DNA of 64,000 nucleotides, from positions 186,001 to 250,000 of the forward strand of contig NZ_LYBV02000026.1 of assembly GCF_001660705.2 (NCBI RefSeq). The letters are read 5' to 3'. Numbering within the stretch: position 1 is the first letter of the stretch; each line of letters opens with the position of its first letter. The notes under the pieces are model-generated. The model saw only the letters and a program-made list of their open reading frames with translations. It ran no database searches and was not told the origin of the DNA. Shown here piece by piece: positions 18,920 to 27,280 of this stretch. This stretch comes from Saccharicrinis aurantiacus (GTDB lineage: Bacteria > Bacteroidota > Bacteroidia > Bacteroidales > Marinilabiliaceae). The translations under genes and the position numbers were made by a program.

Positions 18920-19210
18920 TTAGTTTGCACTCGTTTCAGAAGCTTCGGGGGCTTTTTTTGCTTGTGAGATAAGTTGTTCAATTTTAGATTCTAAATTGCC
19001 CATCTTTTCCTTTAATTCATCTTTTAATTCGCCGCCTTTACTTTTAATTTTTCCTTTAGTTACTTCTAATTCTTTCTCAAGGTCGTCTAATTTGTCCTTA
19101 ATGTCTTTACGAGTTTCAGTTCCTGTTTGTGGAGCATAAAGTAATGCTGCAGCAGCGCCTAAAACAGCACCTGCAATAATTCCACCTAAAAATAAGCCAG
19201 TATTTTTCAT
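18920..19210 (-). CDS. YtxH domain protein
   Basis: A 96-residue protein with one N-terminal transmembrane segment ('LFLGGIIAGAVLGAAAALLYAPQTG', the YtxH/GvpP signature with the APxxG motif) and a long charged coiled-coil tail (about 33-80). It is probably a membrane-anchored general-stress protein. It is the first gene of a leftward cluster with the Holin-X protein, separated by about 120 bp. Confidence 0.88.
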   Translation of the reverse strand: MKNTGLFLGGIIAGAVLGAAAALLYAPQTGTETRKDIKDKLDDLEKELEVTKGKIKSKGGELKDELKEKMGNLESKIEQLISQAKKAPEASETSAN

Positions 19211-19439: not shown

Positions 19440-21659
19440 ATGGAGACTCAAAATGAGCTAAGCGCTATAGAACGTAAAGAAGTTATAAATAAATATAGAA
19501 GTCTTCTTAAATCGAGTAAAAATATTTTCAATAAAGAAGATCTAAAAGAGGTTCGTACTGCAATGTTAATGGCCTTGTCTCGAAAAAAAGAAATTCGAAG
19601 AAAAACCGGTATTCTTTCGGCAGTACACTCTCTTGATGTAGCCCAAATAGTTGGTTCTGAAATAGGTTTAGGAAGAACATCAGTTACATGTGCTTTACTT
19701 TATGATTTGTTGCGAAACGACGATATGGAGAAGCACGAAATATCTGAGATATTTGGTGAAAACGTTGAGGCAATAGTTAGTGGTTTGCTTAAGGTTAGGG
19801 AGTTGTATGATAAGGATACATCCATTGAAACAGATAATTTCAGAAAATTATTACTCACATTTGCGCAAGATGTACGTGTTATTCTTATAATTATAGCCGA
19901 CCGATTACAGGTTATGCGAACTTTGCATTTACTTGATGAGGAACGCCAGCATAAAATTGCTGCTGAGGTTGGTTATTTGTATGCCCCAATGGCACATCGT
20001 TTAGGTTTATACGCCATAAAATCAGAAATGGAAGATTTGGTAATGAAGTTTACCAATAGAGAAATGTATTCTTTCATTGCCAAAAAACTGAATGAAACTA
20101 AGCGCGCTAGAGATAAATATATTGGTGATTTTATTGCTCCCTTGAAAAAGGAGCTTACTGATATGGGATTGAAATTTGATATAAAAGGTAGAACTAAGTC
20201 CATACATTCCATTCATAATAAAATGAAGAAACAAAATACGCCTTTTGAGAAGGTGTACGATTTGTTTGCCATTAGAGTTATATTGGATAGTGAAGGAAAT
20301 ACTGAAAAGCCCGATTGTTGGAAAGTGTATTCTGTTGTAACAGATAAGTATCAACCCAATCCATCTCGTTTGAGAGATTGGCTTTCAATACCAAAATCAA
20401 ATGGTTATGAATCTTTACATACCACGGTGTTAGGGCCAGAAAAAAAATGGGTTGAAGTTCAAATTCGTACCAATAGAATGAACGAGGTTGCTGAAAAGGG
20501 ACTGGCTGCACATTGGAAATATAAAGGAGGCTCAGGTGAGAAGGGAATGGACGAATGGTTAAGTAATATTCGCGAAGTCCTTGAAAATCCTGAAAGAAAC
20601 GCCGTAGATTTTATTGATGATTTTAAATTGAATCTTTACGATGAGGAGGTATTTGTTTTTACTCCTAAAGGAGATTTGCGTCGTTTACCCAAAGGAGCTA
20701 CAATATTAGATTTTGCCTTTGATATTCATTCAGAAGTAGGAAAGAAATGTACTGGAGCTAAAATTAATGGTAAACATGTATCCATTAAGCATGAGGTTTC
20801 TAACGGAGATCATATTGAGATTATTACGGCTAATAATCAAGTGCCACGACCTGAATGGGTAAATATTGTTGCTACTAGTCGAGCAAAAACAAAGTTGAAG
20901 CAAACACTTCGAGAAATTGAATATAAGGAAGCAGAATTTGGTAAAGAAACACTGGTACGACGCTTGAAAAACTGGAAAATGGAGTTAACTGATCAGTTAA
21001 CTCATCAGTTGGTAAAGCATTTTAAAACAAAAAGTATCAACGATTTCTTTAGAGATGTTTCAACCGGAGCCATTGATGTAATGTCTGTGAAGGAATTTAT
21101 CCTTCATAAAGACGATAAGGAAAGTGAAAAGCCAATTGAAGAAATAGCTTCTTTGAAAAGTGCGACTAATTTTGTTGTTCAAGAGGATGAAGAGAGTCAA
21201 TCTTCAGATGTTTTAATGATTGATAAGAATCTGAAAAATGTTGATTACTCATTAGCAAAATGTTGTAATCCGATATTTGGTGATGATATTTTTGGCTTTG
21301 TAGTAGCAATTGGTGGTATTAAAATTCACAGGAAGTCGTGCCCGAATGCTCCTGAGATGCGCACTAAATTTGGTTATAGAATTGTAAATGCACAATGGAC
21401 CGATGGGGCTTCGGCTAGTTTTCAGGCCACATTAAAAGTTACCGGAACTGATGATATTGGTATAGTAAGCAACATTAGTCAGGTTATTACAAAAGATATG
21501 AGTATGAAGATGCGTTCTATTTCAATTGATTCCAATGAAGGAAGTTTTGAAGGGTCTGTTACCGTATTTGTAAACGATACCAATGTGCTTAATACTTTAA
21601 TTAGGAAGATTAAAAATGTTAAAGGAGTATACGCTGTATCAAGGATTGATAGGGCATAG
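19440..21659 (+). CDS. RelA/SpoT-type (p)ppGpp synthetase with degenerate hydrolase domain
   Basis: A 739-residue stringent-response enzyme. The HD domain (about 50-190) keeps H63 and 'IIADRL' but has 'LLYDLLRND' where active hydrolases have 'LLHDVVED': the metal histidine is Tyr88 and the Glu-Asp pair is Arg92-Asn93. The synthetase domain (about 225-380) is intact, with 'KSIHSIHNKMKK', 'YDLFAIRVI', 'SRLRDWLSIPKSNGYESLHT' and 'EVQIRT'. TGS ('VFVFTPKGDLRRLPKGAT'), the Cys-containing zinc-finger-like block ('AKCCNPIFGDDIFGFV') and a C-terminal ACT domain follow. It likely makes (p)ppGpp on ribosomes but cannot degrade it. Confidence 0.93.
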   Translation: METQNELSAIERKEVINKYRSLLKSSKNIFNKEDLKEVRTAMLMALSRKKEIRRKTGILSAVHSLDVAQIVGSEIGLGRTSVTCALLYDLLRNDDMEKHEISEIFGENVEAIVSGLLKVRELYDKDTSIETDNFRKLLLTFAQDVRVILIIIADRLQVMRTLHLLDEERQHKIAAEVGYLYAPMAHRLGLYAIKSEMEDLVMKFTNREMYSFIAKKLNETKRARDKYIGDFIAPLKKELTDMGLKFDIKGRTKSIHSIHNKMKKQNTPFEKVYDLFAIRVILDSEGNTEKPDCWKVYSVVTDKYQPNPSRLRDWLSIPKSNGYESLHTTVLGPEKKWVEVQIRTNRMNEVAEKGLAAHWKYKGGSGEKGMDEWLSNIREVLENPERNAVDFIDDFKLNLYDEEVFVFTPKGDLRRLPKGATILDFAFDIHSEVGKKCTGAKINGKHVSIKHEVSNGDHIEIITANNQVPRPEWVNIVATSRAKTKLKQTLREIEYKEAEFGKETLVRRLKNWKMELTDQLTHQLVKHFKTKSINDFFRDVSTGAIDVMSVKEFILHKDDKESEKPIEEIASLKSATNFVVQEDEESQSSDVLMIDKNLKNVDYSLAKCCNPIFGDDIFGFVVAIGGIKIHRKSCPNAPEMRTKFGYRIVNAQWTDGASASFQATLKVTGTDDIGIVSNISQVITKDMSMKMRSISIDSNEGSFEGSVTVFVNDTNVLNTLIRKIKNVKGVYAVSRIDRA

Positions 21660-21681
21660 TTAATTGCTATTGTTGAAGATA

Positions 21682-21712
21682 AAAAAAGCGGCTATGCCGC
21701 TTTTTTATTATG
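21682..21712. terminator. Bidirectional terminator
   Basis: AAAAAAGCGGC-tat-GCCGCTTTTTT: a 5-bp G+C core flanked by A and T runs. It lies between the converging rel gene and the GH16-fold gene. Confidence 0.88.
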
Positions 21713-21714
21713 TG

Positions 21715-22950
21715 TTAATTTAATTTATAAGTTTTAACCCAATCGATATCAAAAGAAAGTGGTAACCCATTTTTTGGCTCCTCTAAAAAGTGAGTGCTAA
21801 AGCTGAGGTACATTGGATCTGTTGGAATGTTATTGGTTTCTGTGTGAATTGTTGAACCATTAATTTTCCACTCTAGCTTATTTTTGCTCCATTCAAGCGA
21901 GTAAATTAAATACTTACTAGTTGAGGTTGGTGCGTTTAGTGTTTTCTCGTTAGCTTGAACTTCATTATTTTGTTGCCAAAAGTTTCCTACAATTGATTTG
22001 TTGCTTGATTTTCCAGACTTACAGATGTTAATTTGAGGTGTTACAGTTTCTGAGTGTAAACTAAAAATATGCTGAGCATCTTTATTATGGGTAAATTTAA
22101 TTTTAGCTTCAAATTTACCATACTGTTGACGAAAACTTTGGCCAGTATTAATAATACCTGAAGTAAGGTTAAATTCTTGGGGTCTAAATCCAATAGCAGT
22201 ATCCCATACTTTACCTGTACATTTCTCAGTTTTGGTAGTGATTTGCGCACAGTTATTTGAAGTGCTTACATTTTTATCGGTAAAGAACTGTTTTTCATTG
22301 GCCTGTACATAGTTATCATTCAGTAGAGTTTTACCCCAAAAGTAACCTGTAAGCCATTTGTTTTTATCTAATGTGTTAGTGCTAAATTGCTCTTCAAAAG
22401 TCAACGACCATTTGTTAAGCTCCTCAAATGAATTATTATTCTGAGTTTTAAAAAACCAGTTTAAATCATCGTTCTTTTCTAGGCTCGTAAACTCTTCTAT
22501 AAGTTTATGTTCTTCAGAGTTTTTATAACGGTTTTTATCCGTCATATGAGCTTTTATTTCAGTGAACTCTTGTGATACAGTATATTCTTTTAGTTCATAA
22601 TACTTAATAACTTCTGCAGTTGATTTTAATTCTTCTGCTTTTTCGTTATTGCCTTTACTTAAAAACTTATTATATCGCTTAACTATTCTAGATCGCTTTA
22701 AAGCTTTAAATTCTTTCTCCTTTGCAAAAGCTAGAGTGTCTTTGAAACGCTCTTTTTTTAACTTTTTCACTTTCGAGTTAAATTCTGGGCTGTTAACAAT
22801 ATCTTTTAATTCATTATACCTTAAAAGTAAGTCCGATTTTTCTATTTCTGTAAAGCGTTCAAAGTCTAGTTCTAATTGTTTAATTGAAGCTTCAAATTTA
22901 TCGGTTGAAGGAATTTTGTTTCCAAAATTAATTCCAAATATACTGGCCAT
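21715..22950 (-). CDS. Cytoplasmic coiled-coil protein with a catalytically dead GH16-like fold
   Basis: A 411-residue protein with no signal peptide. Residues 1-170 are charged, helical and coiled-coil-like. Residues 180-411 follow a GH16/concanavalin fold: 'TSGIINTGQSFRQQYGKFEAKIKF' corresponds to the family's 'SGrinT...YGrfEaRiK', and 'LSFSTHF...FDIDWVKTYKL' to its C-terminal strand. The catalytic motif E-I-D-I-x-E reads Q306-I-N308-I-C-K311, so nucleophile, assisting Asp and acid/base are all lost. It is probably a binding protein. It sits alone between rel and the tRNA genes. Confidence 0.78.
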   Translation of the reverse strand: MASIFGINFGNKIPSTDKFEASIKQLELDFERFTEIEKSDLLLRYNELKDIVNSPEFNSKVKKLKKERFKDTLAFAKEKEFKALKRSRIVKRYNKFLSKGNNEKAEELKSTAEVIKYYELKEYTVSQEFTEIKAHMTDKNRYKNSEEHKLIEEFTSLEKNDDLNWFFKTQNNNSFEELNKWSLTFEEQFSTNTLDKNKWLTGYFWGKTLLNDNYVQANEKQFFTDKNVSTSNNCAQITTKTEKCTGKVWDTAIGFRPQEFNLTSGIINTGQSFRQQYGKFEAKIKFTHNKDAQHIFSLHSETVTPQINICKSGKSSNKSIVGNFWQQNNEVQANEKTLNAPTSTSKYLIYSLEWSKNKLEWKINGSTIHTETNNIPTDPMYLSFSTHFLEEPKNGLPLSFDIDWVKTYKLN

Positions 22951-23207: not shown

Positions 23208-23283
<76 letters not shown>

Positions 23284-23320: not shown

Positions 23321-23404
23321 GCCCAAGTGGTGAAATTGGTAGACACGCAGCCTTGAGGGGGCTGTGCTCGCAAGGGCGTGAAAGTTCGAGTCTTTTCTTG
23401 GGCA
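23321..23404 (+). tRNA. tRNA-Leu (GAG)
   Basis: Class II tRNA with a long variable arm. Acceptor GCCCAAG / CTTGGGC, anticodon stem CAGCC / GGCTG with loop TTGAGGG (anticodon GAG), and T-loop TTCGAGT. The CCA is not encoded. It lies 37 bp after tRNA-Gly and is probably co-transcribed. Confidence 0.96.
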
Positions 23405-23408
23405 CTGA

Positions 23409-24046: not shown

Positions 24047-24655
24047 ATGAAAAAGATTATAATCATAATGGTGTCTCTAGTTTTGTTATTGACACAATAT
24101 TCAAATGCTCAAAACAGAAGGAATGCAAAGTATAATGCTAGAAAGAAGAAAACAATAGTTGTTCATAATAAAAGGCATGCTCATGCTCACCGAAAAAGAG
24201 TTAAAAGAACCAAGGTTGCGCATTATCATTACCGCCATTTGCCAAAAAGAGGAGCGATTGTGAAATCAATGCATGCCGATGCTCGGATAATAAAACATAA
24301 CGGAATAAAATATCGATTTTATTCGGGAGTTTGGTATATGCCCAAAGGCAATAATTGGGTAGTTGTAGGTTGTAAAAAAGGTGTTAAAATACGTACACTG
24401 CCTGTGGGTTATCAAAAAATTGTAGTGGGTCCAAAAACATATTATTACTATTATGGTACGTATTATGTGATGCGAAGTAAAAAATATGAAGTAGTTGAAG
24501 CTCCGATAGGTGCGGAAATATACTCCTTACCTGAAGGAAACAAAACTGTAAAGCTTGAAGGAAGTGAACACTATGAGTTAGATGGTGTCTATTATATGCC
24601 AAGCATAAACGACCAAGGGGAAGAAATATTGATAGCTGTTAAAAATAAAGATTAA
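24047..24655 (+). CDS. Secreted DUF6515-like protein with His/Arg-rich N-terminal segment
   Basis: A 202-residue protein. A signal peptide (ending 'YSNAQ') precedes a very basic, histidine-rich region (residues 22-70: 'KRHAHAHRKRVKR', 'HYHYRHLPKR'). Three repeated Tyr-rich units follow ('GIKYRFYSGVWYMP', 'KTYYYYYGTYYVM', 'EHYELDGVYYMP'), separated by 'VGxxIxxLPxG' links, the pattern of DUF6515. It is probably periplasmic or surface located. The histidine-rich part could bind metal or polyanions, which is inference. Function is unknown. Confidence 0.8.
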   Translation: MKKIIIIMVSLVLLLTQYSNAQNRRNAKYNARKKKTIVVHNKRHAHAHRKRVKRTKVAHYHYRHLPKRGAIVKSMHADARIIKHNGIKYRFYSGVWYMPKGNNWVVVGCKKGVKIRTLPVGYQKIVVGPKTYYYYYGTYYVMRSKKYEVVEAPIGAEIYSLPEGNKTVKLEGSEHYELDGVYYMPSINDQGEEILIAVKNKD

Positions 24656-25594: not shown

Positions 25595-27280
25595 TTATTC
25601 GGTAGGACGTACTTCGTATTCTTTAATACTAAAGTCATCAAAATACATTGTGGCCTTACCTGGATTTGTATCGTGGTTCGCCATACGCCAATCTAACCGA
25701 CGGATTGAATTTGCTGAATCCCAATAATATGGTTCTCCATTGCCTTTGTCCTTTATCCAACTAAATTTAGCCCATTCATCGAGTACTTTATTAGAATCGT
25801 GCCAAGTACCTCCAGGTCCATTAGGGTTAAACCAAAACATATTATGATGAAAGTTGTTTGATTCGCTCTCGCGGTAGTACATGTAGGTTATTTCATAGTA
25901 TTTACCTTCTTCAAATGCTAAATCTGATGGACTACTAAAAAGAGCCCACGTTTTAGCTTCGGAACCTGATTGTACTTTTAATGAGTAGTTACCACTTGCT
26001 TTTCGTTCGCTGGATATTTCTATTGATCCTTCATTAGCACTGCCTAGTACCCAATTGTCGCCAAGCGTTCCACTTTCAAAGCCATATATATCTTTGTCGG
26101 CAGTTAAATCAACAATATGCATTCGTACATTTTGGTCGGTAAAATCACCTAAAGTACGTTCATCTATCGATTTTATAGTTCTGCCTGACCATGATACTGT
26201 TATTTCATCAGTGTTGTAAATAGGTTCCGTAAGTGTTAGATCTATATAGAATTTAACATCCTCATTAACTTTAGCAGAAGCAACGTCAATTACTTTGTTA
26301 ATTACACCAGCATCCTCATTGTTTATGGTAACAGTAAAGTTCTCTTCTTCATTTTCGAAGGGTGCAACTTCGCCATTTAGCGTAATCTGTATGGTTTCAT
26401 CTTCCAATTCTTTAGGAGTACCTGAAATCATAAAGGGTGCAGTAGATGGTTTTACATGAACAATTAATGGCAGGTAGGTTAATTTACTAGCAGAGGGTAT
26501 TTGTTGTCCTTGTGAATTATTCCCATTGCGGTTCACATTTATTGTTGTTTTATAATCGCCAAGTTGAAAGTAGCTAGCATTAATAGTTTGTCCGCTTGAA
26601 GATTCTGGAGTTCCCCCTTCAAAATTCCAGTAACGTCCAGTAGGTTCACCTAAAACGGTATTATCTACAAACTGAATGGATTCACCAGCTTCTATTTCTT
26701 GCACAGGCCAAGAGGCACTATCATTAATATCAATAGTTGCATCAGCAGTTAAATCTACAATAAGTTGATCGTTATAATAAACTTTTACTGCTGGCTGAAT
26801 ACTATCATATACCTTAATCATAAATGTAGTATCAATAATCCATAGTTTTTTTTCTTCATTAAAAATAGCTGGGAATGTGTCTGTTCCTTGATACTCAACA
26901 TACTTTGTAAATTCGTTGTATAAACGTATACCTTGATTGCCTGGTTTGGTGAAAAGTAAATGAACGGTTTTGTCTTCACTTACAGTATCTTGCTCACTTT
27001 TTGCAAATTTGAAGTAGTCTTCTTCATGACGATCAATCTCTCCTTCTAATTGTATTATACCTGAAGAATCAGCATAGGACCATTGATGGGTTATATACCC
27101 TTGTGATAAATCGGCAAATGACATATAATCATTTATGCTTTTCATCTTAATGTATTGGTTGTTTGCATCCTTTGGTAAGAGCCAAACTGCGTCAGCAAAA
27201 TCTGATAAAATGTCGGTCTCTTTATTGCAGCCTATTATTAAGGTGAATAGGGCGATAACTATTATATTGATATTTTTCAT
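25595..27280 (-). CDS. Surface glycan-binding lipoprotein (SusE/F position; PKD and CBM-like domains)
   Basis: A 561-residue lipoprotein (lipobox 'IIGC', C18). The middle has a PKD-type domain with 'GRYWNFEGGTPESSSGQTI' and 'GDYKTTINV'. A further Ig-like domain follows (about 270-375). A C-terminal jelly-roll (about 395-555) has 'YGFESGTLGDNWVLG', 'ASGNYSLKVQSG' and 'ATMYFDDFSIKEYE', as in CBM4/9-type modules. No catalytic motif is visible. Its place directly after susD indicates a surface glycan-binding protein that hands oligosaccharide to SusCD. Confidence 0.8.
   Translation of the reverse strand: MKNINIIVIALFTLIIGCNKETDILSDFADAVWLLPKDANNQYIKMKSINDYMSFADLSQGYITHQWSYADSSGIIQLEGEIDRHEEDYFKFAKSEQDTVSEDKTVHLLFTKPGNQGIRLYNEFTKYVEYQGTDTFPAIFNEEKKLWIIDTTFMIKVYDSIQPAVKVYYNDQLIVDLTADATIDINDSASWPVQEIEAGESIQFVDNTVLGEPTGRYWNFEGGTPESSSGQTINASYFQLGDYKTTINVNRNGNNSQGQQIPSASKLTYLPLIVHVKPSTAPFMISGTPKELEDETIQITLNGEVAPFENEEENFTVTINNEDAGVINKVIDVASAKVNEDVKFYIDLTLTEPIYNTDEITVSWSGRTIKSIDERTLGDFTDQNVRMHIVDLTADKDIYGFESGTLGDNWVLGSANEGSIEISSERKASGNYSLKVQSGSEAKTWALFSSPSDLAFEEGKYYEITYMYYRESESNNFHHNMFWFNPNGPGGTWHDSNKVLDEWAKFSWIKDKGNGEPYYWDSANSIRRLDWRMANHDTNPGKATMYFDDFSIKEYEVRPTE

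Follow-up and report, generated by a model that had tools for sequence, protein, structure and literature searches.

A gene for a protein of 411 residues is located on the minus strand of the window (the whole stretch of 64,000 nucleotides that was analysed), which belongs to a 5.88-Mb Bacteroidales genome. The protein consists of an N-terminal peptide, two helical repeat units and a domain which, according to the comparisons below, adopts the jelly-roll fold of glycosyl hydrolase family 16 (GH16) with a degenerate catalytic motif; we refer to it as the pseudo-GH16 protein. Its named relatives are found in Saccharicrinis, Labilibacter and Plebeiobacterium. The features of the locus are listed in Table 1.

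Table 1. Features of the pseudo-GH16 gene and its surroundings; positions are counted from the first nucleotide of the window.
Feature	Position	Strand	Basis or remark
YtxH-like small protein	18920-19210	-	near the pseudo-GH16 gene
Bifunctional RelA/SpoT gene	19440-21659	+	adjoins the pseudo-GH16 gene
Hairpin AAAAAAAGCGGC-TAT-GCCGCTTTTTT	21681..21706		direct sequence reading; lies where rel and the pseudo-GH16 gene converge
411-aa pseudo-GH16 protein	21715..22950	-	ORF; conserved family
Pseudo-GH16 beta jelly-roll (residues 181-409), predicted	21724..22410	-	Pfam PF00722; PDB profile search; Foldseek; VIA-align
Degenerate catalytic motif Q306-I-N308-I-C-K311 replacing E-I-D-I-x-E	22018..22035	-	direct reading; homologue alignment
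Family signature W-x4-G-F (W249 to F255), loop preceding core strand	22186..22206	-	homologue alignment
Helical repeat unit 2 (residues 93-160)	22471..22674	-	repeat HMM E 5.9e-14; model
Helical repeat unit 1 (residues 29-87)	22690..22866	-	repeat HMM E 5.7e-20; model helices pLDDT 89-97
Hydrophobic N-terminal peptide and P-x-T-x-K-[FY]-E motif (residues 1-20, MASIFGINFGNKIPSTDKFE)	22891..22950	-	homologue comparison
tRNA-Gly	23208-23283		pair with tRNA-Leu, divergent from the pseudo-GH16 gene
tRNA-Leu	23321-23405		pair with tRNA-Gly, divergent from the pseudo-GH16 gene
DUF6515 protein	24047-24655	+	past the tRNAs
PKD-domain protein	25595-27280	-	past the tRNAs

The neighbouring RelA/SpoT gene (domains HD, RelA_SpoT, TGS and ACT) is convergent with the pseudo-GH16 gene. 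The two genes share a hairpin accompanied by a T-run, which is probably a terminator serving both strands. The DUF6515 and PKD-domain proteins each have an N-terminus resembling an export signal. A reading made from the sequence alone had placed the gene by itself between rel and a tRNA operon. This is an accurate description of the window, but it does not extend to the family, as rel adjoins the gene in only 4 of 41 compared loci. The flanks of these loci are almost wholly different. The largest neighbour cluster covers at most 11 of the 41 and, being built by single linkage, may at such a size merge unrelated genes; no cluster occupies a fixed position. A block composed of the YtxH-like gene, RelA/SpoT and two further small genes is common to three other compared loci. 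The search for a function via the gene neighbourhood was dropped, as none of the 41 loci revealed an operon partner pointing to a pathway.

The assignment of residues 181-409 to the GH16 jelly-roll is based on sequence profiles and on a model of moderate confidence, which agree. The window protein matches PF00722 with 39.6 bits (E 4.9e-10; curated cut-off 22); all nine family members tested match this Pfam family. A profile of 12 members, searched against the PDB, found laminarinase structures with an E of 7e-19 over nearly the whole domain, the catalytic columns EIDIME being aligned opposite eIDIfK. Structure predictions were built on alignments of nine and fourteen sequences. The full-length AlphaFold2 model, from the nine-sequence alignment, has a mean pLDDT of 70 with lower values in the jelly-roll (blocks of about 30-84). 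When this model was compared with known structures, Foldseek gave an E of 9.4e-13 to GH16 and VIA-align a Z of 14.2 over 224 residues (rmsd 3.8), and GH16 chains fill nearly all of the top ranks. Structure prediction with superposition on GH16 had been named beforehand as a test able to refute the proposed fold; the fold predicted is a GH16 jelly-roll.

The motif reading Q306-I-N308-I-C-K311 proved correct. A homologue with an intact E-x-D-x-x-E, the second finding named as able to refute the proposal, did not occur among 113 homologous domains, and no member has both catalytic glutamates together. Position 306 is occupied by Q in 48 domains, H in 39 and E in 18, position 308 by D in 75 and N in 27. 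At the acid/base position 311, K (60) or R (27) is found in 87 domains, the others having S, C, N, E and further residues. Three canonical GH16s from the same searches served as controls and read PEIDILE, GEIDIFE and CEIDVFE; most other GH16 loci of the host also retain the motif. Since intact motifs were detected in the controls, their absence is a property of the pseudo-GH16 family. The claim that all three catalytic residues are lost thus holds for the window copy but not for the family, where the glutamate pair is missing throughout and the middle Asp is frequently kept. In four divergent members (L096, L099, L104 and L111) the acid/base residue is still Glu, but the nucleophile is missing; three of these come from one taxonomic family and sit on a long branch of the tree. 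Judged from these residues, the pseudo-GH16 protein very likely cuts no glycan. With the catalytic machinery lost, it probably binds or holds something instead of cutting sugar.

For the N-terminal part, a coiled coil of about 170 residues had been proposed. This was not borne out: the region is made of tandem units of about 72 residues with short helices, and long continuous helices are absent. Residues 1-182, modelled separately, gave a pLDDT of 88 (mostly 89-97 in the repeats) and revealed ten helices of 8-22 residues and one of five at the end, with breaks between them. An iterated HMM detected 374 repeat units across 114 homologues at a median spacing of 72 residues. Three units are found in 54 homologues, one in 13, two in 14 and four in 9; higher counts are five (15 homologues), six (5), seven (3) and nine (1). 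Protein length climbs stepwise with copy number from about 340 to 839 residues. Members from the window's own genus have two or three units. The nine units, at residues ~100-585, belong to a protein of 839 residues that is cut at the locus edge (L055, genome G259). Some of them are 80-88% identical to one another, which points to recent unit duplication in some lineages.

Lys and Glu abound in the repeats, which did not match any Pfam family. Their best match among PDB sequences has an E of 0.48, and comparison of the array with known folds gave a best Foldseek E of 3.9 and a best VIA Z of 7.0, both at the background for helical models. The same applies to SMC and PI3K p85 coiled coils, which VIA-align listed at Z values of 5-7. 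When the repeat was searched beyond the Bacteroidales in 395 genomes of the phylum, few of them from that order, the sole match at E 1e-5 was the window's own genome. On these comparisons the helical repeat appears to represent an unclassified protein family. Its fusion to the dead GH16 domain is conserved among homologues, as had been asked of the N-terminal region in the sequence-only reading.

In front of the repeats lies a short peptide that is unstructured in the model. It is free of acidic residues in 97 of 106 homologues, with a mean length of 15 and a mean net charge of +1.6, and a motif of the P-x-T-x-K-x-E type follows the first ~15 hydrophobic residues. An amphipathic membrane helix was ruled out by a shuffle test: the hydrophobic moment does not exceed that of shuffled sequences (mean z -0.28), and we therefore limit the claim to a conserved hydrophobic peptide.

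The jelly-roll has acquired features of its own. The W-x4-G-F signature is almost without exception (W249 and G254 in 113 of 113 homologues, F255 in 110) and was not found in the canonical GH16 controls tested. Several polar residues have stayed near-invariant, such as N227 and K283 (112 of 113 each) and R274 (101 of 113). In the laminarinase SCLam, glucan is bound by Y52, N53, W139 and W240 (PMC7961093). Judged by motif position in the PDB-profile alignments rather than by a direct alignment with SCLam, these contacts are apparently lost or deleted in the family. Most laminarinase subsite residues appear to be missing, which favours as ligand a protein or some glycan different from beta-1,3-glucan. 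Together, the W-x4-G-F loop and the apparently eroded glucan contacts make it more plausible that the domain has taken on a new role than that it still binds glucan.

These observations bear on whether the protein could be a cytoplasmic lectin. Its head would then bind a carbohydrate made or stored in the cell, for instance an inner-leaflet lipid-linked glycan or a storage glucan; the N-terminus would sit at the membrane, and the repeats would form a stalk. Catalytically dead glucan binders with a GH16 fold are known in insects (PMC6403176), and a lectin would agree with the FW-motif Trp in the cleft (W297 column), which is kept in 95 of 113 domains, with the retention of the middle Asp, and with the hydrophobic, acid-poor N-terminus. 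However, at the cleft Trp position the window copy carries Ser, and the SCLam contacts are among the residues apparently lost. Moreover, the N-terminus is no more amphipathic than expected by chance, and a glycan-synthesis gene was not seen as a conserved neighbour across the 41 loci. We consider the lectin unlikely.

An enzyme of altered chemistry, which would use other cleft residues on a cytoplasmic glycan or a different substrate, could explain the predominance of K or R at the acid/base position, the frequent middle Asp and the persistence of N227, K283 and R274. The motif varies among members (Q, H or E at 306; D or N at 308; K, R, S, C, N or E at 311), which would be unusual for an active site, and we regard such an enzyme as very improbable.

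Bacterial GH16 proteins usually work outside the cell. The statement that the window protein has no signal peptide was confirmed at the level of sequence features. A lipobox was sought in all homologues and not found in any. The window protein has no hydrophobic segment of signal length, its best 19-residue hydropathy being 0.19. The open frame, retrieved by a whole-genome search, has 418 codons and is thus only about seven longer than the protein, which leaves no room for a missed signal peptide. At the other end, no C-terminal secretion domain was found in the window protein (NCBIfam), which stops directly past the jelly-roll without space for a T9SS C-terminal domain. A cytoplasmic location is probably the simplest reading of these features. 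Non-classical export of a glycan-binding protein would agree with the extracellular habit of bacterial GH16s and with the other GH16 genes of the host, which number roughly a dozen or more. Against it stand, besides the missing signals, the Lys/Glu-rich repeats, which are typical of soluble cytoplasmic helices, and the persistence of the gene in genomes lacking any other GH16, so that we regard export as highly improbable.

The latter point became evident from the distribution of the gene. A copy free of internal stops is present in 69 of 71 genomes of the host's own taxonomic family (51 of the 52 good ones). Strong matches (E below 1e-18, tallied from the table of matches) are carried by approximately 76 of 295 genomes sampled in the order. 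Twelve genomes of the family have a single PF00722 match, and in ten of these (G015, G026, G027, G035, G052, G058, G059, G061, G062 and G070, several of them incomplete drafts) this match is the pseudo-GH16 gene itself. As the sole GH16-type gene of these ten genomes, it should have a role independent of polysaccharide digestion by GH16 enzymes.

When 38 family members were placed in a tree with 15 canonical GH16s, the family fell on one side of a branch with support 100/98; by this analysis, the pseudo-GH16 proteins are one monophyletic Bacteroidales family. Members from the same taxonomic family mostly cluster, which suggests vertical descent. A mobile or phage gene was ruled out, as there was no match to phages or in PADLOC, no meaningful PHROG match and no viral contig; plasmid matches are confined to ordinary GH16 domains at about 25% identity. 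For close pairs, dN/dS is mostly 0.03-0.13 (highest value 0.38) in the helical part as well as in the jelly-roll, which speaks against decay or a pseudogene in either half. A former glycanase in decay, to which the missing catalytic residues might point, is refuted by the frame kept intact family-wide, the strong purifying selection and the new conserved features.

We consider it rather likely that the pseudo-GH16 protein is a non-catalytic cytoplasmic adaptor or scaffold specific to the Bacteroidales; the evidence is compatible with a new protein that has a binding or structural function inside the cell. No later than the base of the family, the two catalytic glutamates of the jelly-roll were lost as a working pair. 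The domain gained a basic residue, mostly conserved, at the acid/base position as well as the invariant W-x4-G-F loop, and it was joined to an array of one to nine short-helix repeats. In the adaptor or scaffold that we propose, the helical repeats would provide a spacer, or a surface for interactions, whose length can be adjusted. The hydrophobic N-terminal peptide may serve to dock it to a partner or to the membrane's inner face, and binding would fall to the remodelled jelly-roll as the head. A more specific form of this proposal is tentative: an order-specific intracellular scaffold in which the undescribed ~72-residue repeat is the adjustable spacer and the GH16 jelly-roll head binds an internal structure, possibly a nascent inner-leaflet glycan or a protein assembly.

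If the scaffold reading is true, the family would provide a pseudo-glycanase that plays a structural part in the bacterial cytoplasm. The loss of the glutamate pair, usually with a basic replacement, makes it a clear bacterial case in which to study the conversion of an enzyme fold to a binding or structural module. That a conserved gene persists in some genomes where all other GH16s are gone speaks for a basic function in these bacteria. Annotation pipelines probably label it as glycosyl hydrolase family 16, and it may in this way enter CAZyme inventories of Bacteroidales. A published account of the family was not found in the literature searched, mostly without subscription papers.

Among known systems, GH16 laminarinases (Thermotoga petrophila 4dfs, T. 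maritima 3azx, Zobellia galactanivorans ZgLamA and ZgLamC) share the jelly-roll, give the best profile match and align in the catalytic columns. In contrast to them, the pseudo-GH16 family lacks the glutamate pair and an export signal, has a shorter cleft loop before the nucleophile position, and adds the helical repeats and the W-x4-G-F loop. The top Foldseek matches of the model are kappa-carrageenases (5ocq; SfGH16 of Saccharicrinis fermentans, 9xlc), the latter from a genus that belongs to the host's taxonomic family; these are active enzymes with the catalytic motif, which the pseudo-GH16 family does not have. A precedent for a jelly-roll lectin inside the cytoplasm is the carbohydrate-binding domain of the O-antigen transporter Wzt, which belongs to a different jelly-roll family and is fused to an ABC ATPase. 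In the beta-1,3-glucan recognition proteins (beta-GRPs)/GNBPs of insects, the catalytic glutamates are gone and an N-terminal region has been added (PMC6403176). Like the pseudo-GH16 family they are GH16-fold pseudoenzymes, a likeness that does not imply kinship beyond GH16. They serve in animal immunity and carry a glucan-binding domain at the N-terminus, whereas this domain is absent from the bacterial, apparently cytoplasmic family, which has in its place a repeat array without Pfam match. GH16 pseudoenzymes as such are thus already known; the version described here differs in being bacterial, apparently cytoplasmic and repeat-bearing.
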